From contig OX387197.1 in the NCBI GenBank assembly GCA_947561715.1, positions 1,245,001 to 1,309,000 of the forward strand: DNA of 64,000 nt. The letters run 5' to 3'. This DNA comes from Ascidia mentula. Taxonomy: Eukaryota > Chordata > Ascidiacea > Phlebobranchia > Ascidiidae. Below the pieces are notes generated by a model. That model ran no database searches. It was not told the origin of the DNA and saw nothing but the letters and a program-made list of their open reading frames with translations. Numbering within the stretch: position 1 is the stretch's first letter; the number at the start of each line of letters is the position of its first letter. Below are positions 19,947 through 50,231 of the stretch, one piece after another. The position numbers were made by a program, and so were the translations under genes.

Positions 19947-22900
19947 ATGAAGCGAACACAAGAAGAAATAAACTTGCATCACCAGAAAGTGATGGATTTT
20001 TTAAACAAGTAAGTTTAATTCATGGAGATTTACTGAAGTTAAACTATTGATGTTTTAGTGACAGAAAAGAAACAAAACGATTTTGCAACAGAACACTTTG
20101 TTCCCAAGGAGAAAACTATTCAATCCATGATGCTGTTGTTTGTTCTATGTCAGATTATTTTAATGCTTTACTTGGTGTTGAGGTAAGTGTGTTTGTTTTG
20201 TAGAAATAATATGAAACCTTAGTGTTTGTCTTTTAGTTGTCCCCTGTCCGTAAATACATTGCTGCAATCAAGCAAACAATGTCATTCAGACAACAACAAC
20301 AACTCTTTAGTTTTTAAAATTAATTTAGTTTGTTGACAAAACTCATAGGTCATGTGGTATAATATCTCAACAATTGAGGAACATACCATAATATTTTATA
20401 CCTGTCTTTTATGAACATACGTACCCAGAGTTGTTCATCCCTTTAGTTTACACCAGGCCTCCATACCACATGGCTCGATCCCGACAACCAGCTCATGTTT
20501 TGACACAATTGGCTCAGTTGCAACAGCTTAGTCTAGTGTTTGCATATCTGATAAGCATTTGTTTAAGTTGTTACAATAGTAAGGTTTAAATTTTTAAGAT
20601 GTTAAGGTGGTTTTTGTTATTACTCGACAATTACGTTGGCTGAACTTTTGTAACTATGCTAGAATGCAACTTACTAGATTGATTTATTTTTTGGTATGGC
20701 CCTTGTGATGTTTCTATTTGAACGGGACTGATGTATGTTATTATATGTAAATTACATACCATATTCCAAATAGTAAAGTTGTAAATTTTTCTCAGTTATT
20801 TAGATCAGATTGTGTTTGTTGTGATTGGTTAACTTTGTTTTCTTATAGATGCGCGAGAAATACTCAGATTTCATCAAGGTTGACAATATTCCACCAAAAA
20901 GACTGGAAAGTGTATTGGATTATATTTACACTGGTGATATTGAAGTAACAGAGAAAAATGTGTTGGAAGTGTTGGAAGATGCTGATTATACACAGATGGA
21001 AGGTATGTAAACATTGCAAGTTTTCATCTTCACTGGTGTTATTGTATTAAGAATGATTATTCCAACATATGTGTTCTATGTATATAATTTTATTTGTCAA
21101 CTACGACATTTTTCATACGTTAATATTATTGTGTTTGACTATTGTTAGTTTGATGTGATGGATATTGATATGTTTGTTCTGTGTAAAATGTAGGACAAAA
21201 CAAATTACTTGTGATTAATGGAGAAGTGAGCACAGATATCACTTCTGAATTAGGTTCGACTGAATTTGGTTTTGTCCACACTTTCAGAGTTAAAGTCATT
21301 TTGTTGTCGAGTCGTCCTTGAAATGACTTCAACTGACAACTGTTTGAAGCTAAGAGCTTATGCTACTCGATACAATCTTGCTGATGTGGAAAAGAAAACA
21401 AACCAAATGATTGTTGATAACATTGCAACAGTTGTGCAACATGATGATTTCATGCAACTTGATGTTGGTGATATGTCTGCAATCATCAAACAGAGAAACA
21501 AAGGGGTAATTATGATTAATTTGTATTTTCTGTTTGCATTGTGGAAGAAAATTGTCAAGACTTTTGATTTGAACGTTAAGGTAAATTAAATGTCGACTAT
21601 AAAAGGTTGGGTAAACTCATCAACAGTTCCTCATCCACAGCCACCAGCTCTGAATGTTGTTTGTTCGTGTTCACACAAAAAGAAGTGAATTCCAGCAATA
21701 ACTGCAGTTAAAACTTAACATGTATTTTGCATAACATTTGCTGTTTACAAGAATTAGTGAACTGGTAACTTTTACATCATATTTTGCGACAGACATTTTT
21801 AGTAGGTTATGGTCCAGGGGTTCTTATCTGCATGTTTTTGTAACGACCTTACATCAAACCAATAAATATCAACCTTTTTGTATTTGTTTTAAGTTGCTTT
21901 TGTGGTGATTAAACTTTTTATGTGACATTTTTACTTTCTATTTGTGTTTTCTGTTTTAATTTACAATTTGATGCAGTCAGATCATGTTAGTAACCTTTTT
22001 ATGATATATTTTAACAGTTACTTAACTTATTGTCACAAATTAGTTGTTGAATGCAGACGGAAGAAGCTGTATTTACTGGAATGGTTCGATGGGTTAATTT
22101 CAATCCTTCCCATCGGGAGGATTTGTTTGTGAATCTTTTCTCGCAACTTGATCTTTCATCTATTTCCAATCAGTCTCTTGCGACCACAATAAGAAATGAA
22201 GTAAATTGTTTTAGTTGATTCGCTTATAATTAGTTTAAATGTTTAATTCTTTTCAGCCCCTAGTAAGAGGTAACATAGAATGCAGCAATGCAGTCATGGA
22301 TGCTTTATCAATGAACTTTGAAAAACCTGGCACAAGTGGAAAAGCAACTCCTGTCAAAAAAGGTGTGATATTTTTTTATATATTGTCACATCATCCACCA
22401 TATTTATACCACTGTTATGGACAACATGGTCCCCAGTAAGAAATAATTATTTCCCCCGACCACAGTGATTTTGTTGTGGACGTCTTGTGACGTAACAAAC
22501 ACCTACTATATTATGTTCCCCTCATTTCGCCGGTATAATGTTGAGATATCTGGTGTAAAGAGCCCAAATTTGTATATGTTTATAATATTCTATTCGAATG
22601 AGTTGCACTCTGAAGCTTTTTAAAATTATACTTTAGGAAACGATTCCAAAACTGTTGAATTGTCAAGAAAAGTGCATATTAAACTTGACCAACCTTATAA
22701 TATCAGTTGGAGAACTGCAAGGTGGAGGCTTGAATGCTGCAACCACCCTTATAGCATTTGTACTCCTGTAATTTTAAACCCTACTCAATTTCCCACTTAA
22801 GATTTACTCGTGGCAAATCATATTGCAAACATCTGGTCAGAATCCAGGGACAGTCAACTACCAACAAGTTAGGGATACAATTCTGTGGGCTGAGATTAAA

Positions 22901-25587
22901 CGAATAAATCAAAACTGACCAATATAGAAAGATTTGCTTCACCAAAAAAGCATTAAGAAAGACTGGTGTCAAAGTAATTAAATACTTAAATGAAGCTTTG
23001 TGTAAATACTATACACAAATACTAACTCCATTCAAAAAGATTGATTAACAAAGCAACAACTTTACCTTCATAAAAAAATATGTTACCCCTGTTATTACCC
23101 CCAAAAAAATATTTTAAGCAAACAAAACCATAACAAACATTGTTTATGTTTCAGATTTGTCAGGATTTCTTCTCATTGGTGGCAGTAATTCAAAACGAGA
23201 TTGTGTGAAATGGAATGTTACCTCAAAACAGCATGAACATTACCCAGTATGTACATTGCTTGCTGTCTTACAGTTTTGCTTTTTAGCATACTTTCTCATA
23301 AATATACATGCTTTTTGTGTGTGCAAGTAAATGTAAATTTTAACTAAAATTAGCAAGACAGCAAAAGTCCAGTAACAGCCAGGATTTATTGCAAAACTTG
23401 GACACTAATAATTTTTTGTTGATTTGATTGCACATGAAATAATAATGCAAACTTGCCCTGGTTTAGTGTAACATGCCAATGACTTAATAAAATATGTTGT
23501 ATAGTATGCCATCTTTTTTTCTATTATTAGAGTCAAAATGATCAAAATTTATTTAGAAAATGATCACAGACAGAGTGAACTCAACTTCAGCCGAATTTGG
23601 TGAAAATATTTATGTAATGGGTGGAGATGGTCCAACACAAAGTTGTGAGATGTTGAATTTGGAGGAACGTAAAAACTGGGTAAAAATTGCTGATTTATCG
23701 GAAGGTCGACGTTGGGCTGCATCTGGTGTTGTTGGAGGTTGGTGTGGGTATTTCTGAAATTGTTGATTTCTTAACCGGGGGCTGTTCTTTTTATCACTAG
23801 TGTGTCTTTGTGTGGTTTATGACTATCTTCTCATCTCTCAACCAACTCATTCTAGTTGCTCTTCATAAATTTTGTTAGTAATACCCCAAAGAAAATTTGT
23901 GTTTTTTTGGACTTGTAACCGGCAAGTTACCAATTGTTGAACAGAAAGTTGTCCAACTATGTTTTTGGAAACTGATAGTAAATATTTGGTGAATATTTAG
24001 ATGTTTATCAACAATTATCACTTTTATGGACAACCTTGTATTCACTAATTACAAACAAATTTAGATGACTTGTATCTCACGGGGGGTGGTGGAAACCAAG
24101 GAACATTCTCATCAACTTTATGTTATTCTGTACAAGAAGACAGATGGAGAAGTGGTTTCGACATGTTACAACCAAGATATGGACATGGAATGTGTCCAAT
24201 TGACAGTGAGAATGCATCTGAGTTCATTTATGTGAAGGAATAATCTCATTACTGGGCCCAGGCCTAAATAGTTGGCATGCATCTGAAACAACAGCATAAT
24301 TAACCGGAAACCATAAATTAAAGTAATCAGTAAATTCACTCTATTTACCCCAACAATATTCACTTTTGGACATGAAAATGTTGTGAAACGCCGACCTCAA
24401 ACTCACCAGAAATGCAGGAAATATTCCATCTTTATTTTGTAGTTCTTTATGACATGAATTTTAACTTTAATATTGATTAATTTCAATTAAAACCTCGATT
24501 GAAAGCTGATCGCTTATTTGTACGTTAAGAAACGCAGAGCTTACCTCAATGATTGTTACGTAACATTACGACATAATCGTAATATGACGTCACAATAAAT
24601 ATTAACACAAGCGATTTAAAAATTTCTTCAGATGTTTTGTTTTCTGTGGGCGGATGGAATGATGGCAGACAACTCTTACAATCATGTGAATTCCTCGATA
24701 TTCGTGTTGGAACCTCCACAAAAATCGCTTCTCTCAATGAAGCAAGATGGGATTTAGCATGTGAAGAAATTAAAGGGAAGATCTATGCAATTGGTTAGTG
24801 ATGAAAAGTTAAGTAACAAAATTAACAGTAAGTGGTTTTTATGTAAATTTTATAAAATACAAATTCATATTCGTCACCGGTAAATGTATCACGTGATAAA
24901 TATAATGGAGTTTCCTGAAAAGAATCCTAAACATAAAAACTGGTAGATATAACTATAAAGTATTAACCTAAAAACACTAAAAAGTTTTACTTTAAATCTG
25001 ACAGGAGGTCGTGGTCGTGGCCTTGACTTCCTGCAAACAGTTGAAGAATACGAACCTAGAGTCAACAAATGGAAATATGTTTCTCCTCTCCTAAATCCTC
25101 GTTGGGGTCACTCTGCTTGTGTTATTGATGGGAGGATTTATGTTGTGGGTGGATTGGGGTAAGAATTACTATTATGACGTCACTATAGTCCACTGTTTCC
25201 CGTTTTTTGTGAAAATGTAAATGTTGAGAAACTGGGACAAGTGGGATATCCGATGTTATACTTGATTAACAACATTTATGAAATGTTTGTTAAGATTAAA
25301 CTTAAAACACTTTGTATTATGCAAGGTTGTATGTGTGGTTTGGTTTAGTGGTGTAGGGGTCTGCCGGTGTACGTTGGTTTGTTTTTGTTAACTTATAAAA
25401 TTTACTTTTAGTGAAAAATGTCGTAGAAAACTTGCCTTTGTTTGTTGTGTGTCTGATTCATGAAACTGTATGATGGTTGTTTTATAGAATGACATCAGTT
25501 GAAGTTTACGATCCAACCTCAGATGTCTGGACACATGCTTTTGATCTTGACAAACAAGTTTATGATGCGACTGTTGTTGCTGTTTAA
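19947..25587 (+). CDS. Kelch-like protein, unit B (complete, 12 exons, 545 aa)
   Basis: BTB-BACK-Kelch protein, predicted Cullin-3 adaptor that brings a substrate for ubiquitination. Exons: 19947-20008, 20059-20182, 20849-21002, 21288-21505, 22057-22200, 22257-22362, 23155-23246, 23557-23737, 24065-24205, 24632-24793, 25005-25158 and 25488-25587. All boundaries are GT-AG and phases match to the TAA. The start is the first ATG (MKRTQEEINLHHQ), the same in four units. BTB is about residues 20-118 (SDYFNALLGVEMREKYSDF, LDYIYTGDIEVTE), BACK about 125-235 (LKSFCC, DNCLKLRAYA, VFTGMVRWVNF), and six kelch blades fill 270-545 (IGGSNSK, VMGGDGP, LTGGGGN, VGGWNDG, IGGRGRG, VGGLG). The last blade loop is about five residues shorter than in A, C and D. 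The nearest named relatives would be KLHL family members; I cannot assign an orthologue. Confidence 0.92.
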
Positions 25588-25650
25588 AATGTTTCCATAT
25601 TTGGGAGTAGTTGATATTTAACTGAGATTGATCACGGACAAAAATGCTCG

Positions 25651-25656
25651 AATAAA
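25651..25656 (+). promoter_or_regulatory. Poly(A) signal AATAAA of KLHL-B
   Basis: AATAAA 64 bases after the stop codon, in a block conserved with unit A. Confidence 0.6.
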
Positions 25657-27284
25657 AGTTTTCATGTAAAATATCGTTTTATGCAACTTCAACCAGTTTT
25701 ATTAAAATCATGTATTTGTGTTTGCAAACCGCTGTATTTTGTGATAATAGCAGATATCCGCAAAATACCAATTATTCCTTTTGTCGATTTTCAACGCGAT
25801 TCTGCTACGAATTTATAATTCCAATACTACAATAGGTGAAGGTGTACAATATGTTCAATGCATGTGTGCCTTAAGCATCTTGTTTTCCCTTGTGAATATC
25901 AAGTGCTAATCCGCGCTATATGAAGTCCAAAGCAGTCTGTTGCAACCTTTACATGTGCGCCTGACTCGATAACCCTTATGGTTTTATCGTTGCCCAAACT
26001 ATTTTATGTTTCATGTTCATGTACGTTGTAACTTGAGAAAATAAAATAGATTTGATTTTGTCAATAGTTTGGTCTTCGTGGAAGGGAGTGATTTTTTTTA
26101 AGTGCGTGACCCCTACCATGCAGGTCTGGTTTTGTCAAAATTCGTTTAAATTTGTTGTTAAAAACCCCCTCCCCCAGAATATAAGATAAAAACAGCCACT
26201 ACTTCAGGATAAATAAACAAGCATGTATAAAGCAAAATTTACGTTTAGCGAATGCATAAATTATCGAGGAACATTAGTACGAAACACCAAAAGCCACAAT
26301 TTACTTGTAGGCGAAGAAAAACGTGAGGAGTTAACGGCAAACCTGGATTTGGTGAGAGCTTTTTTTGTGGTCATCAGCCCTTGATCGTGTGAAAAATGAC
26401 TATTTTTCATACAACTTTACAAAAAATCGCAAATATTAATATCTTGTGCGTGACTTTACAAAAAATAACCTAGAGAATTAGGAGAACAAATTTAGTTACA
26501 TTACCTTCTATGATTCACATGCTGCGATTTCATATATACTTACAAGGCAATAAAATTATATTCTTTGACAATTTCTGCTTTGCCTAAACGCAATTAGTTA
26601 CCGCTTCACTAAACGCAAAACTCCCATCTATAAACACCAGCAACGCATTTTCAGCCAATCTTTACATTAAATTGCATGTGACGCGGATAAATAAAACATT
26701 TTATTAATTAAAGTAAGAGATGGTTATAACTTGAAAAAAATTTTTTGGTAAAACAAGCAGATTGATGCGGCGACCGGCTTTTGAGATACAGCTGATCAAA
26801 GTCGCGTTCTTGCCGCTGCGAACGAAATCGTGTGAAAGCGAGAATATTGTTGTGTGACGTCATAGAAGGCGCTTCAGTCGTGCGAGTGCTGGCAGCAAGA
26901 CTTATGCATAGGAATGGAAAACATTGTAAACCAGATTAAGTATAGTTTTGCATTAAACAGGGGACAACAAGTGAGCAAGTGCAACAAACGGATTTTGATG
27001 TTAATTTGAGCTGCAGATAGGTGGCCGCTATTTCGACCTATGAAGTCTTATGTAGTTGCATAATAATAAAACAGTTACTGGGACAGGGTGTTCTTGTGGT
27101 TAAATCTTTTGTGATTGCTAACGTGATGCATGAACTTTTGAAAACACGACAGAGACAATAAACCGTCAATTAAGCAAAAGATAGAAGTAATTGTATTTTG
27201 AGGCTGGCAATGGCGCTGAGAAAAAACGACCAAATTAGCTGATAATGCCGCACAATTATTCTGTATAGCACCACTTTTTGCTTG
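25657..27284. other. Spacer BC, left part, no gene recognised
   Basis: Homologous to 4340-5879 in spacer AB, with substitutions and an extra stretch of about 80 bp near 27195-27280. Nothing coding or RNA-like is seen. Confidence 0.45.
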
Positions 27285-28972
27285 GCAGTTGCGTTACCTA
27301 CGAATTCGTGTCATAAATGATTAGATTAATTCGCCACAATCAACCACTATAACGCCCGTTAGATGCTCCCCGGTTCGTGGAGCGGAACGTCACACGAGGG
27401 AAAGGTTAAAACGCGCCTCCTGAACTTCCTCCGAAAATATTCGCAGTTTTTTATTCGGACAAAGAAGACGGTTTCTATACAAAATGCATCACATCAACAA
27501 ATGTACTTTAAATTTACAATCAATATAGGCTCACTAATTGTTTTCGGAACCGGCATGCAAACGAATAAATTGCTAGTTCAGTGTTACGCCTAAACAAAGA
27601 TGCAATGTATAGTCACAAATACCCGCTACGACGTTACACACAATGCTTACCAATTGTTGTGACAACAAACCACAAACACCACTTGATTAAATGGCAAGAA
27701 CACTCTAAGAATAAACAAAGCAGTGTAAGTAACTTGTCTGACTCATTTACTTTCCAAGGTACAACGAATGGCATTTTAAGCCATTGCGTTCAAATAGCAA
27801 TCAAGGTTAACGATAATACAGTTTATCCAATACGCATAATTAAGCTCTTTGCGACATAGAACCGTGCTCCACGGAAGTCAGACACAAAAAAGGACTTAAC
27901 CACGTTTTCAGTTCAACAAAACTACCCGTTAACTGTTACGTCACAAACTACAATACACTGCAACAATTATAGCAGTGAAAGGAAAAAAGGTACATAAATA
28001 GAAATCAGGTAATTGCTGGCAAATAAGATGCAACATACCCCCCCACAATGTACGAATCCAAGGAGTACATGTCAACACAACAAACAAACATCGGACAGTA
28101 ATTGCGAAAACAGTTCACCCGCAACTAATCACGCATCGCGTCGTCGCGGCACAATAAGCACAATTTTGCGATTGGGCGTCTTAACGCACCAGCGTGAGTC
28201 TTCACGATCACCTGACGCACAACTCCTTTCCGATCAGGAAGTACCTCAACCACTCGACCCAGGAACCACTTGCTCCGGGGCTAGTTGTTATCCGCCACAA
28301 GAACCACGTCATTGACCATAAATTTCGAATGTTCACTTGCCCACTTCGATCTGGGCATGAGCGTAGGCAGGTACTCGCGAGACCATCGCCTCCAAAACTG
28401 ATCGGCCAGGTATTGTACCTGACGCCACCGGTTTCGATGGTAACAGTCCTTCCCCGTGAACAGTCCTGGGGCATATTCGGCGCTGCACGTTGCAGCAGTA
28501 AATGATTGGGAGTAAGGGGCTCCTCATCCTTCGGATCGAACGTCACTGGGACCAAGGGACGGGTGTTTAGGATTGCCTCGACCTCTACCATCAGAGTGCA
28601 CAACCGCTCATCAGACAACGTCTGTTCCGAGAGCAGGGCGTTGAGAATTTCGCGTACAGAGCGTAACATGCGCTCCCATACCCCACCCTTGTGGCTGACA
28701 GTGGGGGGATTAAAACTCCATGCCATTTCGCATTGTTGCAGATATTCGTGAATCTGCCGTTGGTTCCACTTCTTCAGTTCTTCACGCAGGATACGCTCGG
28801 CTCCGACGAAATTCGTGCCGTTGTCACTGAAGATCTGGTTTGGACGTCCACGACGACCGATGAACCGTCGAAGGGCTCTAATGAAGGAGTCGGTCGACAA
28901 TGAATGGGCTATCTCGATATGTGCGGCCCTGGTGGAGAAACAAGTAAAGATACAACCGTACCTCTTTACCAC
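27285..28972 (-). mobile_element. BEL/Pao remnant (integrase, C-terminal domain, 3' LTR), spacer BC
   Basis: Longest remnant of the second BEL/Pao family, minus strand. The integrase DDE core lies at about 28970-28580 ([25 protein letters not shown]). The EPLTPNHLL region and the C-terminal domain follow, then a purine run and the presumed 3' LTR beginning with TG at 28035. The LTR outer edge near 27285 is uncertain. Gag, protease and reverse transcriptase are absent. It is a broken fossil. Confidence 0.75.
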
Positions 28973-29448
28973 TTCGCCCTTGCTTCACAAGAAAGGGTCC
29001 GAATACTAAATGCATTCTGGCTCTGCTGCCAATTCATCTTTCTGAAACATCGTTTGAGTCGTGTTTTGCTCAGTTTATATAAAGAAGACTGGAGCGATTT
29101 CAAGCGCAATGTGTACTTTTGCCTCAATAAAAAATCAAACGCACCGTTCGTATTTTCGCTGTAGCGACACAATTCTATTCTAATGCCGTTATTCGTGAAC
29201 TAAATTTCCCTATGTTTGTTTCGTACAATTCCAGTTTTGTGCATATATTCTCATGGCAATGTTCAATTCCAAGTGCCCTTGTTAAAAGTTTGGTGAAACA
29301 AATTTAACATAGGATTCGGTGTCGATATTCGGATTCGGTTTGATTCCAAATAAATAATAACCTCGTGTTTTGGCTGATTACCGGAGGTTTGAACTAAGTT
29401 GGCTGCATTTACTATTAACATCTTTTCCCATACTGCTATAATTTAGAG
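28973..29448. other. BC-only segment with TATA-like and poly(A)-like motifs
   Basis: Found in spacer BC only. TTTATATAAAG (29074-29084) is followed about 45 bases later by AATAAA (29126-29131). That spacing is seen in LTRs, but no paired repeat is visible in the window, so the identity is open. Confidence 0.3.
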
Positions 29449-33251: not shown

Positions 33252-36200
33252 ATGAAGCGAACACAAGAGGAAATAAACTTGCATCACCAGAAAGTGATGA
33301 ATTTTTTAAACAAGTAAGTTTAATTTATGGAGATTTACTGAAGTTAAACTATTGATGTTTTAGTGACAGAAAAGAAACAAAACGATTTTGCAACAGAACA
33401 CTTTGTTCCCAAGGAGAAAACTATTCAATACATGATGCTGTTGTTTGTTCTATGTCAGATTATTTTAATGCTTTACTTGGTGTTGAGGTAAGTGTGTTTG
33501 TTTTGTAGAAATAATATGAAACCTGAATGTTTGTCGTATAGTTGTCCCCTGTCCGTAAATACATTGCTGCAATCAAGCAAAAAATGTCATTTACACAACA
33601 ACAACTCTTTACTTTTTAAATTAATTTAGTTTGGTGACAAAACTCATAGGTCATGTGGTATAATATCTCAACAATTGAGAAACAAACCATAATATTTTAT
33701 ACCTGTCTTTTATGAACATATGTACCCAGAGTTGTTCATCCCTTTAGTTTACACCAGGCCTCCATAACACATGGCTCGATCCCGACAACCAGCTCATATT
33801 TTGACACAATTGGCTCAGTTGCAACAGCTTAGTCTAGTATTTGCATATCTGATAAGCATTTGTTTGAGTTGTTATGATATTTAAGGTTTAAATTTGTAAG
33901 ATGTTAAGGTGGTTTTTGTTATTACTCGACAATTACATTGGCTTAACTTTTGCAACTATTCTAGAATGCATCTTACTAGATTGATTTATTTTTTGCTATG
34001 GCCCTTGTAATGTTTCTATTTGAACAGGACTCACGTATGTTATTATATGTTAATTACATACCATATTTCAAATGGTAAATTTGTCAGTTCTTTAGACCAG
34101 ATTGTGTGTGTTTGTTGTGATTGGTTAACTTTGTTTTCTTATAGATGCGCGAGAAATACTCAGATTTTATCAAGGTTGACAATATTCCACCAAAAAGACT
34201 GGAAAGTGTATTGGATTATATTTACACTGGTGATATTGAAGTAACAGAGAAAAATGTGTTGGAAGTGTTGGAAGATGCTGATTATACACAGATGGAAGGT
34301 TATCAAGTTTTAATCTTTACTGATGTTAATGTGTGAAGAGTGATTATTTCAATATATATGTTCTACAAGTGTATTTATTTATTTGCAAACCATGACAATT
34401 TTGCATATTTTAGGTTAAAATTTTTGTGTTTGACTATTGTCACGTTGTTGACACCAGGGACAAAACAAATTATTTGTAATCAATGGAGAAGTGAGCACAG
34501 ATATCACTTCTGAATTGGGTGTGGCTGAATTTTGTTTTATCTACACTTTCAGAGTTAAAGTCATTTTGTTGTCGAGTCATCCTTAAAATGACTTCAACCG
34601 ACAACTGTTTGAAGCTAAGAGCTTATGCTACTCGATACAATCTTGCTGATGTGGAAAAGAAAACAAACCAAATGATTGTTGATAACATTGCAACAGTTGT
34701 GCAACATGATGATTTCATGCAACTTGATGTTGGTGATATGTCTGCAATCATCAAACAGAAAAACAAAGGGGTATTTGTGAAGAATTTATGTTTTTTGTTT
34801 GTGTTGCAGAGCAGACTTTCTGTTGCATATGGTGATTAAGCAATAAATTATTAGGCCTCTTATGTAAACCGATATAAGTTGGGTAAGCACATGATCAGTT
34901 CCTGAGATGTCATTTCTTTTTTAGTCTCACAAAGTAAAAAGTTGATTCCAGTTATAATTGCAGTCCTAATGTAAAATGGATTTCACATAGGTTGTAACTT
35001 TTACAAGGATTAGTGGATTTTGCTGCATACCTACATCCAATATTGTTTTCTAAGTATATTTACTTTTTTTCAGTAAAATTAAAAAAAAAAGAATTATTAT
35101 TTTTATGTTTAAAGAAGCATTATTGGTGATTTAAACTCCTTGATGTTTCACTTTTTGTTTTATTTTCTTGGTGTAAATTTAGTATTTGATGTAGTCACCG
35201 GTGACATTAAACTCTGTATCATTTGTTTAAACTGTTACTTGTTATTACATATTATTTGTTGAATGTAGATGGAAGAAGCTGTTTTTACTGGAATGGTTCG
35301 ATGGGTTAATTTCAATCCTTCCCATCGAGAGGATTTGTTTGTGAATCTTTTCTCACAACTTGATCTTTCATCTATTTCCACTCAGTTTCTTACAACTACA
35401 GTTAGAAATGAAGTAAATTATAAAGTTTATTATTTTTAGCCTTCTGTTAGTGGCTTTTAATATTACTGTGTTTTTTTCAGCCGCTCACGAGAAATAGCTT
35501 TGAATGCTGCCGTGCAGTTTTGGATGCTTTGTCAATGAAATTTAAAAACCCAGGAACAAGTGGAAAAGCAACAACTGTCCAAAAGGGTGCAAGATTTATT
35601 TATGTAATGTTACATTCAAAAAAGATGTTACATCCACCATATTTACACCACCCACATATCTTATGACTTCAAGCTCCAAATAAATTTCCCACTTCACATA
35701 AACTCGAAGCAAATAATATTGCAAATATGTGGTCAGAATTCAGGGACAGTCAACTACCAACAAGTTAGGACTACAATTCTGTGCATGTGATCAAACAAAA
35801 GTACTAAAATAATACCACACTGACTAGTACAGAGAAATGTGCTTCACCATAACTTACAAAATGTATTAGTTTTGTAGCTGTACTTAAAAACTTAACTGAA
35901 TGATGTTTAACACAAATACCAACTCCAATGAAATAGGTTGATTTACAAAGCAACAGTTTCACCTGAATAAAGATATGTTTCCATTGTTATCACCATAATT
36001 ATTTATTTTACACAAATAATAACCGTTACAAGCAATGTTTATGTTGCAGATTTGTCGGGATTTCTTCTCATTGGTGGAGGTAATTCAAAACGAGATTGTG
36101 TAAAATGGAATGTTACCACAAAACAACATGAACATTACCCAGTTAGTACATTGCTTGCTGTTAAATGGTTTTGCTTATTCAACGTACTGTCCCATAAAAA

Positions 36201-38734
36201 TACATGTTTTTTGTGTGCAAGTAAATGCAAATTTAAACTTAAGTTATCAAGACTGCAAAAGTCCAGTAACATTTCGGATTTAATGCAAGATTTGGCCACT
36301 GATATTCTTTTTCGAATTTTATTGCACAAGAAAAAAATAACGCAACATGCCCTGGTTTAGTAAAATGACTTAACAAAATATGTTTCAAAGTAAATCATGT
36401 TTTCTGTTATTCGAGTTACTTGTTTTAAGATAGAGACTTTCTGTTATTTAGTGAAACATTTTGATCACTTTGCCTTAATGTATAGTTTCATTGTCATCAA
36501 ATTTTGTTAAGAAAATGATCACAGACAGAGTGAACTCCACTTCAGCCAAATTTGGTGTAAGTGTTTATGTAATGGGTGGAGAAGGTCCAACACAAAGTTG
36601 TGAGATGTTGAATTTGGGGGAAAGTAAAAACTGGGTAAAAATTGCTGATTTATCGGAAGGTCGACGTTGTGCTGCATCTGGTGTTGTTGGAGGTTGGTGT
36701 GGTTATTTCTGAAATTGTTGATCACTAAACCAGGGGCGGTTCCTGGAATAAAGCATTGGGGAAGCCCCCCTCACAAATTGTCATAGCAATAAAAATTAAC
36801 GCGGGGCAGACAAAATGTTTTGTTAATATTTATTTTTGTTTATCACTAGTGTGTTTTTGTGTGGTTTATGACTATCTTCTCATCTCTCAACCAACTCATT
36901 CTTGTTGCTCTCCATAACTTTTGTTAGTAATACCCCAGAGAAAATTTTTGAATTCTGCCATGACTGCATTTGCGATTTTTTTTGTGCTTTTGACAGTATT
37001 ACTGACACTTTGCTGACAAGTTACCAATTCTTAAACAGAAAGTTGTTCAACTATGTTTTTGGAAACTAATAGTAAATATTTAGATGTTGATCAACAATTA
37101 TAACTTTTATAGACAACCTTGTTTTCACTAATTACAAACAAATTTAGATGACTTGTATCTCACGGGTGGTGATGGAAACCAAGGAACATTTTCATCAACT
37201 TTGTGTTATTCTGTACAAGAAGACAGATTTAGAAATGGTTTCAACATGTTACAACCAAGATATGGACATGGAATGTGTTCAATTGCCAGTAAGAATGCAT
37301 CTAAATTCATTTTTGTATAGGATTAATCTCATTACTGGACCCGGTACCAATAGTTGGCATGCATCTGCAACAACAACATAATTAACCGTAAACCATAAAT
37401 TAAAGTAATCAGTAAATCCACTCTATTTACCCCAACAATATTCCATGACTGGGCCCAGATGTAAATCAGTCAGTTTAAACTTTTTTCCCCAACAATATTC
37501 ACTTTTGGACATAAAAATGTTGTGAAACACCGACCTAAAACTTACCAGAAATACATGAAATATTCCATCTTTATTTTGTAGTTCTTTATTGCATGAATAT
37601 TAACCATAATATTGATTAATTTCAATTAAAACCTCGATTGAAAGCTGATCGCTTATTTGTACGTCAAGAAACGCAAAGCTTACCTCATTGCTTGTTACGT
37701 AACATTACAACATAATCGTAATATGTCACAATAAATATTAACACAAGCGATTTAAAAAATTTCTTCAGATGTTTTGTTTTCTGTGGGCGGAAGTGATGGC
37801 AGACAATCCTTACAATCATGTGAATTCCGCGATATTCGTGTTGGAACCTCCACAAGAATCGCTTCTCTCAATGAAGCAAGATGGAATTTAACATGTGAAG
37901 AAATTAAAGGGAAGATCTATGCAATTGGTTAGTGATGAAAAGTTAAGCAATAAAATTAACAGTCAGTGGTTTTTTTGTAAATTTTATAAAATACGAATTC
38001 ATATTCGTCATCGGTAAATGTATCACGTGATAAATATAATGGAGTTTCCTGAAAAGAATCCTAAACATAAAAACTGGTAGATATAACTATAAAGTATTAA
38101 CCTAAAAACAATAAAAAGTTTTACTTTAAATCTGACAGGAGGAGGTGACGATCGTGGCTTCCTGCAAACAGTTGAAGAATACGAACCTAGAGTCAACAAA
38201 TGGAAATATGTTTCTCCTCTCCTAAAACCTCGTTGGCGTCACTCTGCTTGTGTTATTGATGGGAGGATTTATGTTGTGGGTGGAACGAGGTAAGAATTGA
38301 TATTATGACGTCACTATAGTCCACTGTTTCCCGTTTTATGTGAAAATGTAAATGTTGAGAAACTGGGACAAGTGGGATATACGATGTTATACTTGATTAA
38401 CAACTTGCATAAAATGTTTGTTAAGATTAAACTTAAAACACTTTGTATTATACAAGGTTGTATGTGTGGTTTGGTTTAGTGATGAAGGGGTCTGCGGTTG
38501 TACGTTGGTTTGTTTTTGTTAACTTATAAATTTTTCTTTTAGTGAAAAATGTTGTAGAAAAACTTGCCTGTGTTTGTTGTGTGTCTGATTCACGAAACTG
38601 TATGATGGTTGTTTTATAGGATCTGGGGTAAAGGACTCACATCAGTTGAAGTTTACGATCCAACCTCAGATGTCTGGACACATGCTTTTGATCTTGACAA
38701 ACCAGTTGATTTTGCGACTGTTGTTGCTGTTTAA
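33252..38734 (+). CDS. Kelch-like protein, unit C (complete, 12 exons, 548 aa)
   Basis: Exons: 33252-33313, 33364-33487, 34145-34298, 34553-34770, 35269-35412, 35481-35586, 36050-36141, 36512-36692, 37148-37288, 37769-37927, 38139-38289 and 38620-38734 (TAA). The exon 3 donor is GTTATC, where the other units have GTATG, so splicing there may be weaker. BTB and BACK are nearly identical to the other copies. Exon 6 (LTRNSFECCRAVLDAL) is shared only with unit D, while exons 11-12 and the 3' flank follow unit A, so the gene is a mosaic. Blade loops: IGGGNSK, VMGGEGP, LTGGDGN, VGGSDGRQS, IGGGDDRG and VGGTRIWGKG. The post-arginine sites are RWNLTC and RWRHS, and the end is DKPVDFATVVAV. It looks fully functional. 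Confidence 0.92.
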
Positions 38735-42069: not shown

Positions 42070-42215
42070 CGCTTGTGTTTCTCCTGGTGCTTATATTATA
42101 AGAGATGTTGTTTGCAAATATGTTCCATTATGTTCTTAATGGAGATTTCACAATGTAAATTATATTAATGACATGGACGTTTTCGGAAATAATTCCACCT
42201 GAAACTAAATATATA

Positions 42216-42264
42216 GATGTGGTTGTGGCAGAGCAACTTGTCCATAAATCCAACTTGAATTCTT
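42216..42264. repeat. 49-bp target-site duplication, left copy
   Basis: Identical to 43734-43782. A single copy is present at the empty site 32738-32786. Confidence 0.8.
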
Positions 42265-42545
42265 TTTTTTTTCTTTTTTTTATTCGGGCGTGTCGCGTTG
42301 AAATCCTGCGGTATTCTAATTCCGCAGTAGCAGGTTTGTGCTTCTGTGTTCGCATGGTAACGACCACAGGTGCACCGCATAAGTAACCGTTTACAGTTTG
42401 TATTTGGACATCGGATGCCTGTGTAGGATTCTTTGTTGGTCCACTGCCCGCACAGGCATCGAAGGTAATCAATCTTGCATTTGCAAGTGCAGATGGTTCC
42501 GTCGGACGGGAACATAGTGCGGCAGCACTTCGCATATTGTTTCTT
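42260..42545 (-). other. Cysteine-rich segment and oligo(A) tail of the CD LINE
   Basis: Minus-strand frame reading YAKCCRTMFPSDG, CTCKCKIDYLRCLCGQW, RCPNTNCKRLLMRCTCG and CYCGIRIPQDFNATRP, then a Lys run encoded by an A-rich tail (plus-strand T runs at 42261-42281). About fifteen cysteines in CxC and CCG-type pairs; likely zinc-binding. Confidence 0.6.
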
Positions 42546-43733
42546 GGGTGAGGGGCTTTTTTCCTTTTTTGTTTCCTGCCTACCACCGGCTCAAAAGGGG
42601 TTGAGGATGTTGGTGTCTGATCGCATCGGAGGTCAGCTGGAATGTCACCTGGTGTCTTGGGCAGAGTCTTGGGCTTGTATTTGGGAACGAGCTGCAATGA
42701 CCCAGGGGTATGAGGGTTGGTGACAACTTGCCTGTGGGTTTTGGTGGGGATGTAGATTCCTCATCAGTTTTGGTGGAGGCGGAGGAGGAGTCTTCATCGG
42801 GAGAAGAAGTGTCTCCGTTTTCCTCAGTGGAGTTGGCGACATGCTCGCTCTGCTCTTTGGTCTCATCGGTCTCGATCTGGAGGTGTTTGGTGTGTTTCTT
42901 CTTCTTTCTCTTTTGGCATTCGGCCTTGTTGTGGCCATCGGCCTTACAGTGGTCGCAGTGCGGTGGCTGCGATGTATGGAACGCCGATACCACGTGTTTC
43001 CCGAGCTTGAGCTCTCTTGGAATGGGGTTGTTTTGGAGGACGGACCTCTTCCTAACAAATGCTCTTTTCCCATCGCTGATGCGGTACTCGTCATAGAGTC
43101 GCCAACCCCGGGACACTGGCGCGTAGTGGCTCAGCGGTGCCTGGATTGGCTGCTGTTTGATCTTAGGGGGTACGTAACTGATGACGACTCTCTCCTCGTC
43201 ATTGGTCCACGCGTTAGCGTAGACCGCCGACGAGGAGTCGTTGATCTTCTTGGCCAATTGTTTCGCTTGCGCCTCATTGGTGGTATAAAACATTACCTTT
43301 CCGTTAGGAAGAAGGTTAATACCATTTAAACTTCTTATTGCAAAGTTCATTGCTTTGAGGAGGTTGTAGATCGCTTCCCGGTTTAGCCCGGGATTGAATC
43401 TCGCTTCTACCTTTCCATCCCGCTCAATGCGGAAGGGGTCATCGTCAGTGTTGTCTACGTTTTGGGCCGCTACTGCAGCATAAGACGTGCCTGCAGGGTT
43501 TGTAGCACCTGCCATACTTCAGTGCGCAATACTATAGGACAGTTTGTCCAACCGCTCACCTTGGATTTGTGGTCCTGGAATACGTTTCGGAAAATCCCAG
43601 ATGACATAATCCAATTTGGCGTAATCCAAGGACTAAGAGCCAGAAACTAACTTGCCTTCTTTGCTGTTATAAGTAACGTAACTGAAGTAAAAAACGAATT
43701 CAGGTCTCGTCAGTACTTCTTCAGTAAACGAAT
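42265..43733 (-). mobile_element. Short ORF1-only LINE with A-rich tail, spacer CD
   Basis: 1469-bp minus-strand element bounded by perfect 49-bp direct repeats. Its 3' end is an oligo(A)-rich tail. It contains a 5' UTR, ORF1 with one CCHC knuckle and the Cys-rich segment, and no endonuclease or reverse transcriptase. This resembles the half-LINE arrangement of mammalian HAL1. Its 5' junction coincides with that of the longer LINEs in AB and DE. Confidence 0.8.
42580..43515 (-). CDS. LINE ORF1 (CCHC zinc-knuckle protein), 311 aa
   Basis: Uninterrupted from MAGATNPAGTSYAAVAAQN. An N-terminal conserved block (EARFNPGLNREAIYNLLKAM, VVISYVPPKI, WRLYDEYR) reaches about residue 165. The knuckle CDHCKADGHNKAEC (CX2CX4HX4C) is at about 190-203. 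A basic run and an acidic Ser/Thr-rich stretch follow. It is predicted to be an RNA-binding gag-like protein. The last 40 or so residues may be out of frame, because the Cys-rich segment downstream reads in another frame. Confidence 0.75.
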   Translation of the reverse strand: MAGATNPAGTSYAAVAAQNVDNTDDDPFRIERDGKVEARFNPGLNREAIYNLLKAMNFAIRSLNGINLLPNGKVMFYTTNEAQAKQLAKKINDSSSAVYANAWTNDEERVVISYVPPKIKQQPIQAPLSHYAPVSRGWRLYDEYRISDGKRAFVRKRSVLQNNPIPRELKLGKHVVSAFHTSQPPHCDHCKADGHNKAECQKRKKKKHTKHLQIETDETKEQSEHVANSTEENGDTSSPDEDSSSASTKTDEESTSPPKPTGKLSPTLIPLGHCSSFPNTSPRLCPRHQVTFQLTSDAIRHQHPQPLLSRW

Positions 43734-43782
43734 GATGTGGTTGTGGCAGAGCAACTTGTCCATAAATCCAACTTGAATTCTT
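43734..43782. repeat. 49-bp target-site duplication, right copy
   Basis: Identical to 42216-42264. Also present at 55782-55830 beside the DE LINE and, partly deleted, from 13835 beside the AB LINE. Confidence 0.8.
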
Positions 43783-43960
43783 CAGGCGATTGTTTGGCTT
43801 GTTTTGCAAACTTACAGTCTTTCTTAAACCCTAATATAAACGTTCCCAACTTAACTCTATTTTGTCTTTTAATTTTTGTGCTGTTCTGTGTTACGAAATT
43901 TGTGCTATTGTTGCTTTGACGTGACAGCAAATTTGGGAGATGATAGATCACATTCTATTG

Positions 43961-44121
43961 CAGTGCTTCCCAACCTTTTTCAGTTCGCGACCCACTTTTA
44001 ATGCAAGTTTTATTGTGCGACCCACAATGACATATGACCAAACGAATGACATGCAACAATTTCGTGATCTAATAGAAAACTGCAACATTTAGAAATGCGA
44101 CCCACTGGTTGGGATGTACTG
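43961..44121. mobile_element. hAT MITE, 161 bp, spacer CD
   Basis: Paralogue of 14040-14200, with the same ends and the same TTCTATTG and TTCTAGTT flanks. Confidence 0.8.
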
Positions 44122-44181
44122 TTCTAGTTGAACAAACTCCACATACGTTTACATATTTATCTGTAAAAGCTATAAATAGAC

Positions 44182-44519
44182 TGTAGCCGCTGCCTTTTAA
44201 TTTGTAGCTGTGGTGTGCTGCTCAATTGCCGCTGTCTACAACTCATACGCACTTTCCCACTTGTTTATTCAATTGGTGCGGTCAAGATTGTAACGGAAGG
44301 TTTTCTTTTTATAAATACAAACGAAAAACATACAAAATTCAAATTTAACAAAATAAGCCACACTTACCGACAGTAAGGCCTGAGTAAGCAACATAAAACG
44401 TGCGCTTTCAAACGTGCGCTATTTATTTGGCGTAGACAAATTATAAGCCACGCTTGTAATCAAGCCTACAAGCGGCAGTTAATTCGTTGCGTTCAAGACG
44501 CGAAACTTTGGCGATTACA
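44182..44519 (-). mobile_element. Solo LTR of the BEL/Pao element, spacer CD
   Basis: 338-bp LTR with no internal sequence, flanked by TAGAC on the left and TACAC on the right. It sits at the same paralogous position as the two-LTR elements in AB and DE. This is the usual product of recombination between the two LTRs. Confidence 0.85.
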
Positions 44520-44692
44520 TACACCAAGGCCAAATATTTTTTAAAAACCGATCACACAATGAAATAGTTCTCGTTCAATGCTTGAATAATTAAAAGCATC
44601 GGCTTGTTTGAAAATTTATGTGTCACACAATGTTTGATGGTCAAAATAAATTTTGAATTAATTCAACTGAAAAAAAATCAAATATTACTTTC

Positions 44693-44853
44693 TGATCACT
44701 CAAGCGTGGTATTGGGTGGTTTCCCTCCGGTGTGACGTTAGTTTCGTTCTCGGAAATGCTGCAAAAAATAAAAAGAAGTTGCAATCAAACATTTAGGGTT
44801 GTACACTAGACCCGGTATTTCATTCACTGTCAGTTTAACTTTTTGTCTTCATC
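44693..44853 (+). promoter_or_regulatory. Conserved 5' flank of KLHL-D
   Basis: Same block as upstream of units B, C and E, from TGATCACTCAAGCG to the ATG. Confidence 0.35.
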
Positions 44854-47800
44854 ATGAAGCGAACACAAGAGGAAATAAACTTGCATCATCAGAAAGTAAT
44901 GAATTTTTTAAACAAGTAAGTTTAATTTATGGAGGTTTACTGAAGTTAAACTATTGATGTTTTAGTGACAGAAAAGAAACAAAACGATTTTGCAACAGAA
45001 CACTTTGTTCCCAAGGAGAAAACTATTCAATACATGATGCTGTTGTTTGTTCTATGTCAGATTATTTTAATGCTTTACTTGGTGTTGAGGTAAGTGTGTT
45101 TGTTTTGTAGAAATAATATGAAACCTGAGTGTTTGTCATATAGTTGTCCCCTGTCCGTAAATACATTTCTGTAATCAAGCAAACAATGTCATTTAGACAA
45201 CAACAACAACTCTTTACTTTTTTTAAATTAATTTAGTTTGTTGACAAAACTCTTAGGTCATGTGGTATAGTATCTCAACAATTGAGAAACAAACTATAAT
45301 ATTTTATACCTGTCTTTTATGAACACACGTACCTAGAGTTGTTCACCCCCTTTAGTTTACACCAGGCCTCCATACCACATGGCTCCATCACGACATTCAG
45401 CTCATGTTTTGACACAATTGGCTCAGTTGCAACAGCTTAGTCTAGTGTTTGCATATCTGATGAGCATTTGTTTGAGTTTTTACAATATTAAGGTTTAAAT
45501 TTTTAAGATGTTAAGGTGGTTTTTGTTATTACTCAACAATTACATTGGCTTAACTTTTGCAACTATGCTAGAATGCAACTTACTAGACTGATTTATTTTT
45601 TGCTATGGCCCTTGTGATGTTTTTATTTAAACGGGACTGATGTATGTTATTATATGTAAATTACAAACCATATTCCAAATGGTAAAGTTGTAAATTTTTG
45701 TCAGTTCTTTAGACCAGATTGTGTGTGTTTGTTGTGATTGGTTAACTTTGTTTTCTTATAGATGCGCGAGAAATACTCAGATTTTATCAAGGTTGACAAT
45801 ATTCCACCAAAAAGACTGGAAAGTGTATTGGATTATATTTACACTGGCGATATTGAAGTAACAGAGGAAAATGTGTTGGAAGTGTTGGAAGATGCTGATT
45901 ATACACAGATGGAAGGTATGCAAGTTTTAATCTTTACTGATGTTAATGTGTTAAGAGTGATTATTTCAATATATATGTTCTACATGTGTATTTATTTATT
46001 TGCAAACCATGACAATTTTGCATATTTTAGGTTAAAATTTTTGTGTTTGACTATTGTCACGTTGTTGACACCAGGGACGAAACAAATTATTTGTAATCAA
46101 TGGAGCAGTGAGCACAGATATCCCTTCTGAATTAGGTGTGACTGAATTTTGTTTTGTTGACACTTTCAGAGTTGAAGTCATTTTGTTGTCGAATCATCCT
46201 TAAAATGACTTCAACTGACAACTGTTTGAAGCTAAGAGCTTATGCTACTCGATACAATCTTGCTGATGTGGAAAAGAAAACAAACCAAATGATTGTTGAT
46301 AACATTGCAACAGTTGTACAACATGATGATTTCATGCAACTTGATGTTGGTGATATGTCTGCAATCATCAAACAGAGAAACAAAGGGGTAATTATGAAGA
46401 ATTTATATTTTTTGTTTGTGTTGCAGAGCAGACTTTTTATTGCATATGGTGATTAAGCAATAAATTATTAGGCCTCGTATGTAAACCGATATAAGTTGGG
46501 TAAGCACATGATCAGTTCATGAGATGTCATTTATTTTTTAGTCTCACAAAGTAAAAGTTGATTCCAGTTGTAATTGCAGTCCTAATGTAAAAGTGGATTT
46601 CACATAGGTTGCAACTTTCACAAGGATTAGTGGACTTTGCTGCATACCTACATCCAATATTGTTTTATTTTCCTTTTTTTCAGTAAAATTATTAATTCCA
46701 ATGATTTAAAAAAAAAAATTTTTATGTTTAAAGAAGCATTGTTGGTGATTTAAACTCTGTGATGTTTCACCTTTCATTTCATGTTCTTGGCGTAAGTTTA
46801 TTATTTGATGTAGTCACTGGTGACATTAAACTCTGTATCATTTGTTTAAACTGTTACTTGTTATTACATATTATTTGTTTAATGTAGATGGAAGAAGCTG
46901 TCTTTACTGGAATGGTTCGATGGGTCAATTTCAATCCTTCCCATCGAGAGGATTTGTTTGTGAATCTTTTCTCACAACTTGATCTTTCATCTATTTCCAC
47001 TCAGTTTCTTACAACTACAGTTAGAAATGAAGTAAATTATAAAGTTTATTATTTTTAGCCTTCTGTTAGTGGCTTTTAATATTACTGTGTTTTTTTCAGC
47101 CGCTCACGAGAAATAGCTTTGAATGCTGCCGTGCAGTTTTGGATGCTTTGTCAATGAAATTTGAAAAGCCAGGAACAAGTGGAAAAGCAACAACTGTCCA
47201 AAAGGGTGCAAGATTTGTTTATGTAATGTTACATTCAAAAAAATATGTTACATCCACCATATTTACACCACCCACATATCTTATGACCACTTCACATAAA
47301 CTCGAAGCAAATAATAATGCAAATATGTGGTCAGAATCCAGGGACAGTCAACTACCAACAAGTTAGGGATACAATTCTGTGCCTGTGATCAAACAAAAGT
47401 ACTAAAATAATACCACACTGACTAGTACAGAGAGATGTGCTTCACCATAACTTACAAAATGTATTAGTTTTGTAGCTGTACTTAAAAACTTAACTGAATG
47501 TTGTTTAACACAAATACCAACTCCAATGAAATAGGTTAATTTTCAAAGCAACAGTTTCACCTGAATAAAGATATGTTTCCATTGTTATCACCATAATTAT
47601 TTATTTTGCGCAAACAAAACCATAACAACCCATGTTTATGTTGCAGATTTGTCAGGATTTCTTCTCATTGGTGGCCTTAATTCAAAACGAGATTGTGTAA
47701 AATGGAATGTTACCTCAAAACAACATGAACATTACCCAGTTAGTACATTGCTTGCTGTTAAATGGTTTTGCTTATTTAACGTACTTTTCCATAAAAATAC

Positions 47801-50231
47801 ATGTTTTTTGTGTGCAAGTAAATGCAAATTTAAACTTAAGTTATCAAGACTGCAAAAGTCCAGTAACATTTCGGATTTAATGCAAGATTTGGCCACTGAT
47901 ATTCTTTTTCGAATTTTATTGCACAAGAAAAAAATAACGCAACATGCCCTGGTTTAGTAAAATGACTTAACAAAATATGTTTCAAAGTAAATCATGTTTT
48001 CTGTTATTTGAGTTACTTGTTTTAAGATAGAGACTTTTTGTTATTTAGTGAAACATTTTAATCACTTTGCCTTGATGTATAGTTTCATTGTCATCAAATT
48101 TTGTTAAGAAAATGATCACAGACAGAGTGAACTCCACTTCAGCCAAATTTGGTGTAAATGTTTATGTAATGGGTGGAGATGGTCCAACACAAAGTTGTGA
48201 GATGTTGAATTTGGGGGAAAGTAAGAACTGGGTAAAAATTGCTGATTTATCGGAAGGTCGACGTTGTGCTGCATCTGCTGTTGTTGGAGGTTGGTGTGGT
48301 TATTTCTGAAATTGTTGATTACTAAACCAGGGGCTGTTCCTGAATTAAAGGATTGGGGAAGCCCCCTACACAAATTGTCATGGCAATAAAAAGTAACGCT
48401 GTGGCAGACAAGGGTTTTGTTAATATTTATTTCCGTTCATCACTAGTGTGTCTTTGTGTGGTTTATGACTATCTTCTCATCTCTCAACCAGCTCATTCTT
48501 GTTGCTCACCATAACTTTTGTTAGTAATACCCCAAAGAAAATTTGTGAATATTGCCATGACTACATCTGCGAAATCTTTTTGTACTTTTAATATTGTTAC
48601 TGACACTTTACTGACAAGTTACCAATTGTTGAACAGAAAATTGTTCAACTATGTTTTTAGAAACATATGGTGAATATTTGGTGAATATTTAGATGTTTAT
48701 CAACAATTATAACTTTTATGGATAACCTTGTTTTCGCTAATTACAAACAAATTTAGATGACTTGTATCTCACGGGCGGTCAAGGAAACCAAGGAACATTC
48801 TCATCAACTTTGTGTTATTCTGTACAAGAAGACAGATGGAGAAGTGGTTTCGACATGTTACAACCAAGATATGCACATGGAATGTGTTCAATTGACAGTA
48901 AGAATATGTCTGGGTTCATTTGTGTGTAGGATTAATCTCATTACTGGATCCAGTCCCAAACAATTGGCATGCATTTGAAACAACAACATAATTAACCGGA
49001 AACCATAAATTAAAGTAATCAGTAAATCCACTCTATTTACCCCAACAATATTCACTTTTGGACATGAAAATGTTGTGAAACACCGACCTCAAACTTACCA
49101 GAAATGCAGGAAATATTCCATCTTTATTTTGTAGTTCTTTATTGCATGAATATCAACCACAATATTGATTAATTTTTATTAAAACCTTAATTTAAAACTA
49201 ATCGCTTATTTGTACGTCAAAAAACGCAGACCTTACCCCAATGATTGTTACGTAACATTATGATATAATCGTAATATGACGTCACAATGAATATGAACAC
49301 AAGCGATTTTTCTTCAGATGTTTTGTTTTCTGTGGGCGGATATGATGGCAGACAATCCTTACAATCATGTGAATTCCACGATATTCGTTGTGGAACCTCC
49401 ACAAGAATAGCTTCTCTCAATGAAACAAGATGGGGTTTAGCATGTGAAGAAATTAAAGGGAAGATCTATGCAATTGGTTAGTGATGAAAAGTTAAGCAAT
49501 AAAATTAACATTAAGTGGTATTTTATGTAAATTTTGTAAAATACAAATTCATATTCGTCACCGGTGAATGTATCACGTGATAAATATAATGGAGTTTCCT
49601 GAAAAGAATCCTAAACATAAAAACTGGTAGATATAACTATAAAGTATTAACCTAAAAACAATAAAAAGTTTTACTTTAAATCTGACAGGAGGTTATGGTC
49701 GTGGCTCCCTGCAAACAGTTGAAGAATACGAACCTAGAGTCAACAAATGGAAATATGTTTCTCCTCTCCTAAATACTCGTTACCGTCACTCTGCTTGTGT
49801 TATTGATGGGAGGATTTATGTTGTGGGTGGATTGGGGTAAGAATTACTATTATGACGTCACTATAGTCCACTGTTTCCCGTTTTATGTGAAAATGTAAAT
49901 GTTGAGAAACTGGGACAAGTGAGATATACGATGTTATACTTGATTAACAACTTGCATAAAATGTTTGTTAAATTGTGGTGTAGGGGTCTGCGGGTGTACG
50001 TTGGTTTGTTTTTGTTAACTTATAAAGTTTACTTTTGGAAAAAAAATGTTGTAGAAAAACTTCCCTGTGTTTGTTGTGTGTCTGATTCATGAAACTGTAT
50101 CATGTTTGTTTTATAGAAGCTGGGTTAAAGGACTTGCATCAGTTGAAGTTTACGATCCAACCTCAGATGTTTGGAAACATGCTTTTGATCTTGACAAACC
50201 AGTTTGGGATGCGACTGTTGTTGCTGTTTAA
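44854..50231 (+). CDS. Kelch-like protein, unit D (complete, 12 exons, 547 aa)
   Basis: Exons: 44854-44915, 44966-45089, 45762-45915, 46170-46387, 46888-47031, 47100-47205, 47647-47738, 48109-48289, 48757-48897, 49318-49476, 49689-49836 and 50117-50231 (TAA). All junctions are GT-AG and in phase. Exons 5-8 and their introns are closest to unit C, while the exon 11 end and donor (GGATTGGGGTAAGAATTACT) follow unit B. Blade loops: IGGLNSK, VMGGDGP, LTGGQGN, VGGYDGRQS, IGGYGRGS and VGGLGSWVKG. Further variable sites are RYAHGM, RWGLAC, TRYRHS and DKPVWDATVVAV. A V-to-C change gives DIRCGTS in exon 10. It appears intact. Confidence 0.92.

Follow-up and report, generated by a model that had tools for sequence, protein, structure and literature searches.

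The 64,000-nucleotide stretch of Ascidia mentula DNA analysed here (contig OX387197.1, positions 1,245,001 to 1,309,000 of the forward strand; hereafter the window) contains part of a large array of KLHL genes, whose proteins carry a BTB domain, a BACK domain and a kelch propeller. The comparison of the copies strongly supports diversifying selection with its focus on that face of the propeller which is predicted to bind substrates. The array is a young expansion, specific to its lineage, of BTB-BACK-Kelch genes rich in introns, and we think it probable that these genes form a repertoire of putative Cul3 adaptors, encoded in the germline, with a predicted target-binding face that positive selection has diversified.

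We modelled 31 copies with a 12-exon scheme (E1 to E12), namely three units of the window and 28 further loci; of these, 21 are complete, read through in one open frame and follow the GT..AG rule at their introns, apart from one GC donor in L016. The rate tests were made on these 21 intact copies, the ten broken or incomplete ones being dropped, and every copy compared comes from the host assembly (196 Mb, 79 contigs). By counting, the ratio of nonsynonymous to synonymous differences per site (pN/pS) is 0.26 in E1 to E5, which correspond to BTB and BACK, and reaches 2.03 in E10, 1.88 in E11 and 1.79 in E12. For the site tests, run with our own code, gapped columns were removed, so that 540 of the 561 codons were kept, at the cost of a large part of the most variable loops in blades 4 to 6. 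On a single tree of the whole gene the log likelihoods (lnL) were -7106.25 for M1a, -6906.13 for M2a, -7124.45 for M7, -7106.15 for M8a and -6917.13 for M8, where the values of the null models are those of the initial fit, the fits of M7 and M8a being poorer in the corrected whole-gene rerun. The selected class holds 6% of the codons with a dN/dS ratio (omega) of 7 under M2a, and 8.5% with an omega of 5.7 under M8. An earlier note on this DNA had proposed that the array is diversifying and had set a site-model comparison beforehand as the check; a class with dN/dS well above 1 does exist. Its companion statement, that BTB and BACK stay constant, is right on average, this half of the gene being under purifying selection, although three codons beyond the propeller (113, 244 and 251) are scored as selected too.

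The face was assigned by sequence landmarks in each blade: the first to seventh residues after the blade Gly-Gly (GG+1 to GG+7, the BC loop) and the first to third residues after the strand arginine (R+1 to R+3, the DA loop). A strict set comprises GG+1, GG+6, R+1 and R+2, that is, the positions pointed out in the earlier note plus R+1; both definitions were written after the alignment had been seen. The 13 columns of highest entropy in the 21 copies all lie on the predicted face. Among the propeller codons with an M8 posterior above 0.95 on the whole-gene tree, 15 of 21 are on the face, against 47 of the 271 tested (hypergeometric P 1.2e-8), and 13 of 21 are at strict positions, against 21 of 271 (P 6e-12). 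We find in units A to D all the residues which had been listed by eye, both those after the blade GG (N/S/G/L; N/D/E/D; Q/G/D/Q; Y/WN/S/Y; GDD/RGR/GDD/YGR; TR/LG/TR/LG) and those after the strand arginine. Of the selected propeller codons, 15 of 21 (or 15 of 23, with the trees described below) are at BC- or DA-loop positions of the type which carries ligand contacts in KEAP1, and six to eight are placed elsewhere. Neither the site models nor this landmark placement, the two checks by which the earlier note could have failed, refuted its reading.

In unit D, on the plus strand of the window, the face codons concerned are codon 280 of blade 1, the first after GG (47676..47678; seven residue types in 21 copies); codons 330 (48178..48180, after GG) and 359 (48265..48267, second after the strand arginine) of blade 2; codon 375 of blade 3, after GG (48780..48782); codon 427 of blade 4, the sixth after GG (49356..49358), which we take to be a position of the KEAP1 Q530/F577 type; codons 452-453 of blade 4, first and second after the strand arginine (49431..49436); codons 469-473 in the BC loop of blade 5, where both sequence and length are hypervariable (49694..49708); codons 498-499 of blade 5, first and second after the strand arginine (49781..49786); and codons 546-547 of the C-terminal strand, at a DA-loop position (50205..50210). 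KEAP1 makes contacts through Tyr525, Gln530, Ser555, Ala556, Tyr572, Phe577 and Ser602. Further contacts, Arg380, Asn382, Arg415, Arg483, Ser363 and Ser508, are named in excerpts of one paper, which describe the BC and DA loops as differing between KLHL proteins, as conserved within each of them and as suggested substrate binders (PMC10146909).

Because the copies recombine, we repeated the tests with one tree per exon, built from flanking non-coding DNA only. With these flank trees omega is 3.14 for E10 (twice the lnL difference from omega 1 being 11.9), 2.48 for E11 (10.1), 0.53 for E7 and 0.03 for E2; M8 places 5.6% of the codons in a class of omega 15, and 15 of the 23 selected propeller codons are on the face. 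We also simulated sequences without selection. When a single tree was used, the test statistic did not exceed 5.5 (20 simulations); when each exon had its own tree and the analysis assumed a single one, it rose to as much as 50, with a mean of 24.5 (20 simulations). The observed statistic is 390 for the propeller and 10.3 for BTB/BACK, the latter being inside the range of recombination alone. This shows that recombination inflates the selection test, but falls short of the value observed for the propeller.

Synonymous change is slower than intron change (scale 0.23-0.96), which weighs against the selective reading insofar as it inflates omega, and the comparison of each codon with its flanking introns is therefore safer. 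In this comparison 18 of the 540 codons evolve faster than the flanking-intron rate at a false discovery rate of 5%; the propeller accounts for 17 of them, of which 13 lie on its face (P 4e-8). Relative to introns, the strict positions (21) have a median rate of 3.3; in the non-face propeller and in BTB/BACK the median is at the lower limit of the grid, 0.005. After the E11 boundary of unit C had been corrected we ran the site models again, together with the tests of the face and of the introns, and their results stand; the boundary is one codon off in the pN/pS counts, the per-exon omegas, the entropy and silent diversity, the residue strings and composition, the comparison of C with L022, the mosaic analysis and the simulations.

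Other observations fit selection on a contact face less well. Selected codons 354, 399, 410, 434, 496 and 522 lie off the face with the whole-gene tree, and eight of 23 do so with the flank trees (436, 443 and 495 being added and 410 lost). Some blade positions are not involved, codons 405-406 of blade 3 and 313-314 of blade 1 being unselected. With the flank trees, omega is 1.41 in E12 (twice the lnL difference 1.3, not significant), 0.96 in E8 and 0.99 in E9. Codon 244, in the linker between BACK and Kelch, is selected, as is 251 in the whole-gene test, and a pure contact-face model does not explain them. Four-fold silent diversity is 0.078 in face codons against 0.041 elsewhere in the propeller (1.9 times). 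Finally, of the 31 copies, ten have a broken gene model or are not complete within their stretch, several having exon lengths which break the frame.

The copies belong to an array much larger than the window. A search of the genome with the blade 5 exon, in which 150 of 230 candidates were scored, returned at least 118 similar exons at 79% identity or more (counted by hand), and 148 of the 150 scored matches are without an internal stop. Of these 118 exons, 109 are on contig C1, eight on C52 and one on C71; 100 of the 109 fall within two regions of C1 (27.9 Mb), at 0.65-2.83 Mb and 26.8-27.1 Mb. The first of these regions consists of a minus-strand sub-array (0.65-1.07 Mb), a plus-strand one (1.19-1.79 Mb) and a mixed part (1.94-2.83 Mb). 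Two sub-arrays of C1 are thus oppositely oriented, and the contig carries arrays towards either end. BTB exons of the window type occur at about 80 loci among the matches listed, by a hand count. In the 21 intact copies each of E1 to E9 has one length, and E10 to E12 differ in length by multiples of three without exception, in part because the copies were chosen by their open frame. L030, one of the ten other copies, has an open frame and is without E1 and E2 in its stretch.

Outside this genome, a search limited to exact shared words and similar length found one close relative of the BTB-BACK half. It is a Phallusia mammillata "Kelch-like protein 20" (P0003), with 51% identity over 76% of that region; unlike the array copies, it is a predicted protein of 372 residues with BTB and BACK and no kelch repeats listed. 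In the host genome no match to P0003 exceeds 67% identity. The host KLHL18, for comparison, is 90% identical to that of Phallusia mammillata, 75% to that of Clavelina, 73% to that of Ciona and 67% to that of Styela.

A second group of copies, of which two loci were read (L037 and L038, at 2.19 and 2.69 Mb of C1), is 54-63% identical to unit D in blades 2-3 and 80-97% in blades 4-6. Between the groups the DNA is 91-97% identical in E12 and 78-84% in the E10-E11 blocks (95% in one E11 stretch), and the other introns do not align. In L037 and L038 the framework of blade 6 is nearly unchanged (DNA 91-97%), and the loops are their own. Gene conversion homogenising the 3' exons between the two groups was considered and rejected, no clean tract being shown.

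What could have driven the loops apart, other than a conflict with changing targets? The alternative which survives best, and to which we give a minor share of belief, is a division of labour among ordinary cell proteins. It has in its favour that KLHL proteins generally differ in their loops, presumably by substrate; according to the same excerpts, however, the loops are conserved within each KLHL protein (PMC10146909). Here copies whose propellers are about 6% apart at silent sites differ on average at 10.4 of the 13 hypervariable codons (minimum three), and the residue strings at these codons are different in all 21 copies. C and L022, the pair with the least silent and BTB change, have 29 amino-acid differences against five silent codon differences in the propeller, 17 of the 29 being on the face. 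We found no correlation of loop difference with silent divergence or with array distance in the 19 copies of the plus-strand array. The many loop differences between copies so similar at silent sites, and the lack of correlation, suggest continuing change, rather than new roles which became fixed. We also note that L010 and L019, about 180 kb apart on C1 (1.21 and 1.39 Mb), are identical at the last nine of the 13 hypervariable sites and differ in blades 1-3; this resembles the sharing of a specificity block, yet their flanks are no closer there than elsewhere.

A reproductive or self/non-self role, such as gamete compatibility or a genomic conflict like drive, on the model of the plant S-locus F-box genes, seems to us unlikely. 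Many ascidians are self-sterile, which would suit such a role. It would also be in line with plant tandem adaptor arrays whose positively selected specificity sites serve non-self recognition, as described in the abstract of PMC6649718. Against it, the related copies are not at one locus: they are found at several places on C1 and also on C52, C67 and C71.

Somewhat less likely still is local hypermutation, or conversion from loop donors, in the absence of selection on the protein. The copies are indeed mosaic, the nearest neighbour changing along the gene: the flanks of E6 to E9 differ by 0-0.8% between C and L022, against 3-10% elsewhere, and codon 375 differs inside the close tract. Tracts thus appear to have been exchanged between copies. 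The raised silent diversity of the face codons and the inflation of the test statistic in the null simulations also speak for this explanation. On the other hand, the observed propeller statistic is far above the simulated maximum, and silent diversity within four codons of the selected sites is 0.046 against 0.041 elsewhere. At 15 hypervariable codons the first and second positions have a diversity of 0.46 each, and the third of 0.22. Moreover the residues at the variable sites are not random: Asp (15%), Tyr (14%), Cys (8%) and Trp (8%) are above their share in the rest of the propeller, while Gly (9%) is not, and Ala, Thr, Lys and Met are absent. Most hypervariable codons end in T or C, which explains the lack of Lys and Met but not that of Ala and Thr. 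Local hypermutation as a sole cause was rejected on silent diversity, and recombination was kept as a source of variation.

Relaxed constraint, that is, redundant or decaying copies whose loops are held by nothing, is very improbable: the broken or incomplete copies and the wide differences of loops among KLHL proteins generally (excerpts of PMC10146909) would fit it, but E10 and E11 have an omega significantly above 1 as whole exons, nearly all blade 5 matches are free of stops, and relaxation cannot exceed the neutral rate, so that face codons which outpace their flanking introns reject it, provided that the intron rate is a fair neutral yardstick.

We return to the repertoire of putative Cul3 adaptors. 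Each copy would be the substrate receptor of a Cul3-RING E3 ubiquitin ligase, with a shared engine (BTB, BACK and a Met-Arg-Glu motif) and a target-binding face of its own, as judged from domains and motifs. In unit D, Pfam finds BTB (PF00651, E value 1e-19, residues 23-124), BACK (PF07707, E value 2.5e-16, residues 132-231) and Kelch_1 (E value 9e-38, four stretches passing); six GG blades, each on its own exon, were read by eye, and neither a MATH nor an F-box domain is among the 13 Pfam families listed at E values up to 1. M63-R64-E65 of unit D aligns with M-S-E of three KLHL3 sequences, M63 and E65 being invariant in all 21 copies, and we take M-R-E to occupy the phi-x-E position through which BTB contacts Cul3. 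Expressed copies would dock on Cul3 through the conserved BTB/BACK and present different target faces. New copies would arise by segmental duplication, with a birth-and-death turnover; variants would be provided and distributed by duplication and by recombination between copies, and the loops would be kept different among copies by selection for new specificities. Most likely, changing intracellular targets, such as proteins of viruses, parasites or selfish elements, would be recognised for ubiquitination; this immune-type role is proposed because of the analogy with nematode BTB-MATH and F-box arrays and with plant S-locus arrays. More tentatively, and with appreciably less confidence than the repertoire itself, we suggest an antibody-like germline intracellular repertoire, in which at least 100 KLHL receptors built on one scaffold, each with its own hypervariable loops, enriched in Tyr, Asp, Trp, Phe and Cys and shaped by selection and recombination, would tag non-self proteins for destruction.

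The window itself holds B, C and D as three complete KLHL genes, A as a 3' part and E as a 5' part, all on the plus strand. In our gene models unit B begins with its ATG at 19947 and unit D finishes with its stop at 50231, which are the two coordinates given in the earlier note; of the four units that it compared, B, C and D are complete, whereas A is broken as modelled. Unit A (L012; 60..4270), delimited by tblastn and an exon fit, comprises E3 60-213, E4 467-684, E5 1089-1232, E6 1290-1395, E7 1838-1947, E8 2152-2332, E9 2603-2742, E10 3310-3468, E11 3678-3825 and E12 4156-4270; its E9 (blade 3) has 140 nt against 141 in intact copies, which breaks the frame. Unit B (19947..25587, 551 codons) has an open frame and GT..AG introns throughout: E1 19947-20008, E2 20059-20182, E3 20849-21002, E4 21288-21505, E5 22057-22200, E6 22257-22362, E7 23155-23264, E8 23557-23737, E9 24065-24205, E10 24632-24793, E11 25005-25158 and E12 25488-25587. 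Unit C (33252..38734, 554 codons), from an exon fit, has E1 33252-33313, E2 33364-33487, E3 34145-34298, E4 34553-34770, E5 35269-35412, E6 35481-35586, E7 36050-36159, E8 36512-36692, E9 37148-37288, E10 37769-37927, E11 38139-38289 and E12 38620-38734. Unit D (44854..50231, 553 codons), from the exon model and Pfam, is a single open frame in 12 coding exons with all introns GT..AG: E1 44854-44915, E2 44966-45089, E3 45762-45915, E4 46170-46387, E5 46888-47031, E6 47100-47205, E7 47647-47756, E8 48109-48289, E9 48757-48897, E10 49318-49476, E11 49689-49836 and E12 50117-50231. Unit E (L013; tblastn and exon fit) is in the window from 62355 to 63891, with E1 62355-62416, E2 62467-62590, E3 63266-63419 and E4 63674-63891, and is intact when followed past the window end.

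The linker exon E6 (in the window at 1290-1395, 22257-22362, 35481-35586 and 47100-47205) has the highest divergence of the twelve exons, both silent (pS 0.29) and in amino acids (pN 0.13), and does not belong to the substrate face. Tandem repeats with units of 9, 19, 29 and 46 bases lie directly 3' of unit D (50498-50721). Between the KLHL units there are BEL/Pao elements (Pao peptidase, DUF1759 and integrase) and a long interspersed nuclear element (LINE) with endonuclease and reverse transcriptase, for example at 9039-19181, 28208-28984, 42580-43518 and 52454-61762. These retroelement blocks match each other at about 90-98% and were therefore probably duplicated along with the KLHL genes.

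To our knowledge, invertebrate chordates lack rearranging antigen receptors, and the array offers a new place to look for fast-evolving cell-autonomous recognition in these animals. With one scaffold, some 15-20 mapped residues and three loops of variable length, specificity can be approached by comparing natural copies. Like the Cul3 adaptors KEAP1, KLHL3 and KLHL20, the copies have BTB, BACK and kelch repeats and keep the phi-x-E position, and they appear to vary at the same loop positions which carry contacts in KEAP1. They differ in that they diverge in the BC and DA loops faster than their flanking introns, whereas these loops are conserved within each KLHL protein according to the excerpts of PMC10146909; the KLHL propeller is used here as a diversifying surface.

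The earlier note knew of no described system matching the array, which was too strong, since nematode and plant S-locus expansions of cullin adaptors with positively selected substrate domains are described in the excerpted literature. In the open-access literature searched we found no positively selected adaptor expansion built on KLHL proteins, and no report of such an array in tunicates. The Caenorhabditis BTB-MATH and F-box (FTH/FBA2) families are likewise expanded cullin adaptors, with positive selection in the substrate domain and purifying selection in the F-box (excerpts of PMC5392922 and PMC12062965, citing Thomas 2006), and in the array too the substrate domain is positively selected and the cullin-side domain is under purifying selection. 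The nematode families use MATH or FTH/FBA2 where the chordate array uses a kelch propeller, and infection-induced expression is reported for them in these excerpts. The array works like these expansions without being a member of them. The plant S-locus SLF/SFBB genes also encode E3 adaptors in a tandem array, with specificity sites under positive selection, each adaptor recognising a subset of partners (PMC6649718, abstract); they have an F-box instead of BTB-Kelch, a known partner (S-RNase) and a role in pollen. A Petunia haplotype has 17 of them, whereas the related exons of the ascidian genome number at least 118. We therefore file the array as an expansion of the KLHL family, within the known theme of positively selected cullin-adaptor repertoires.

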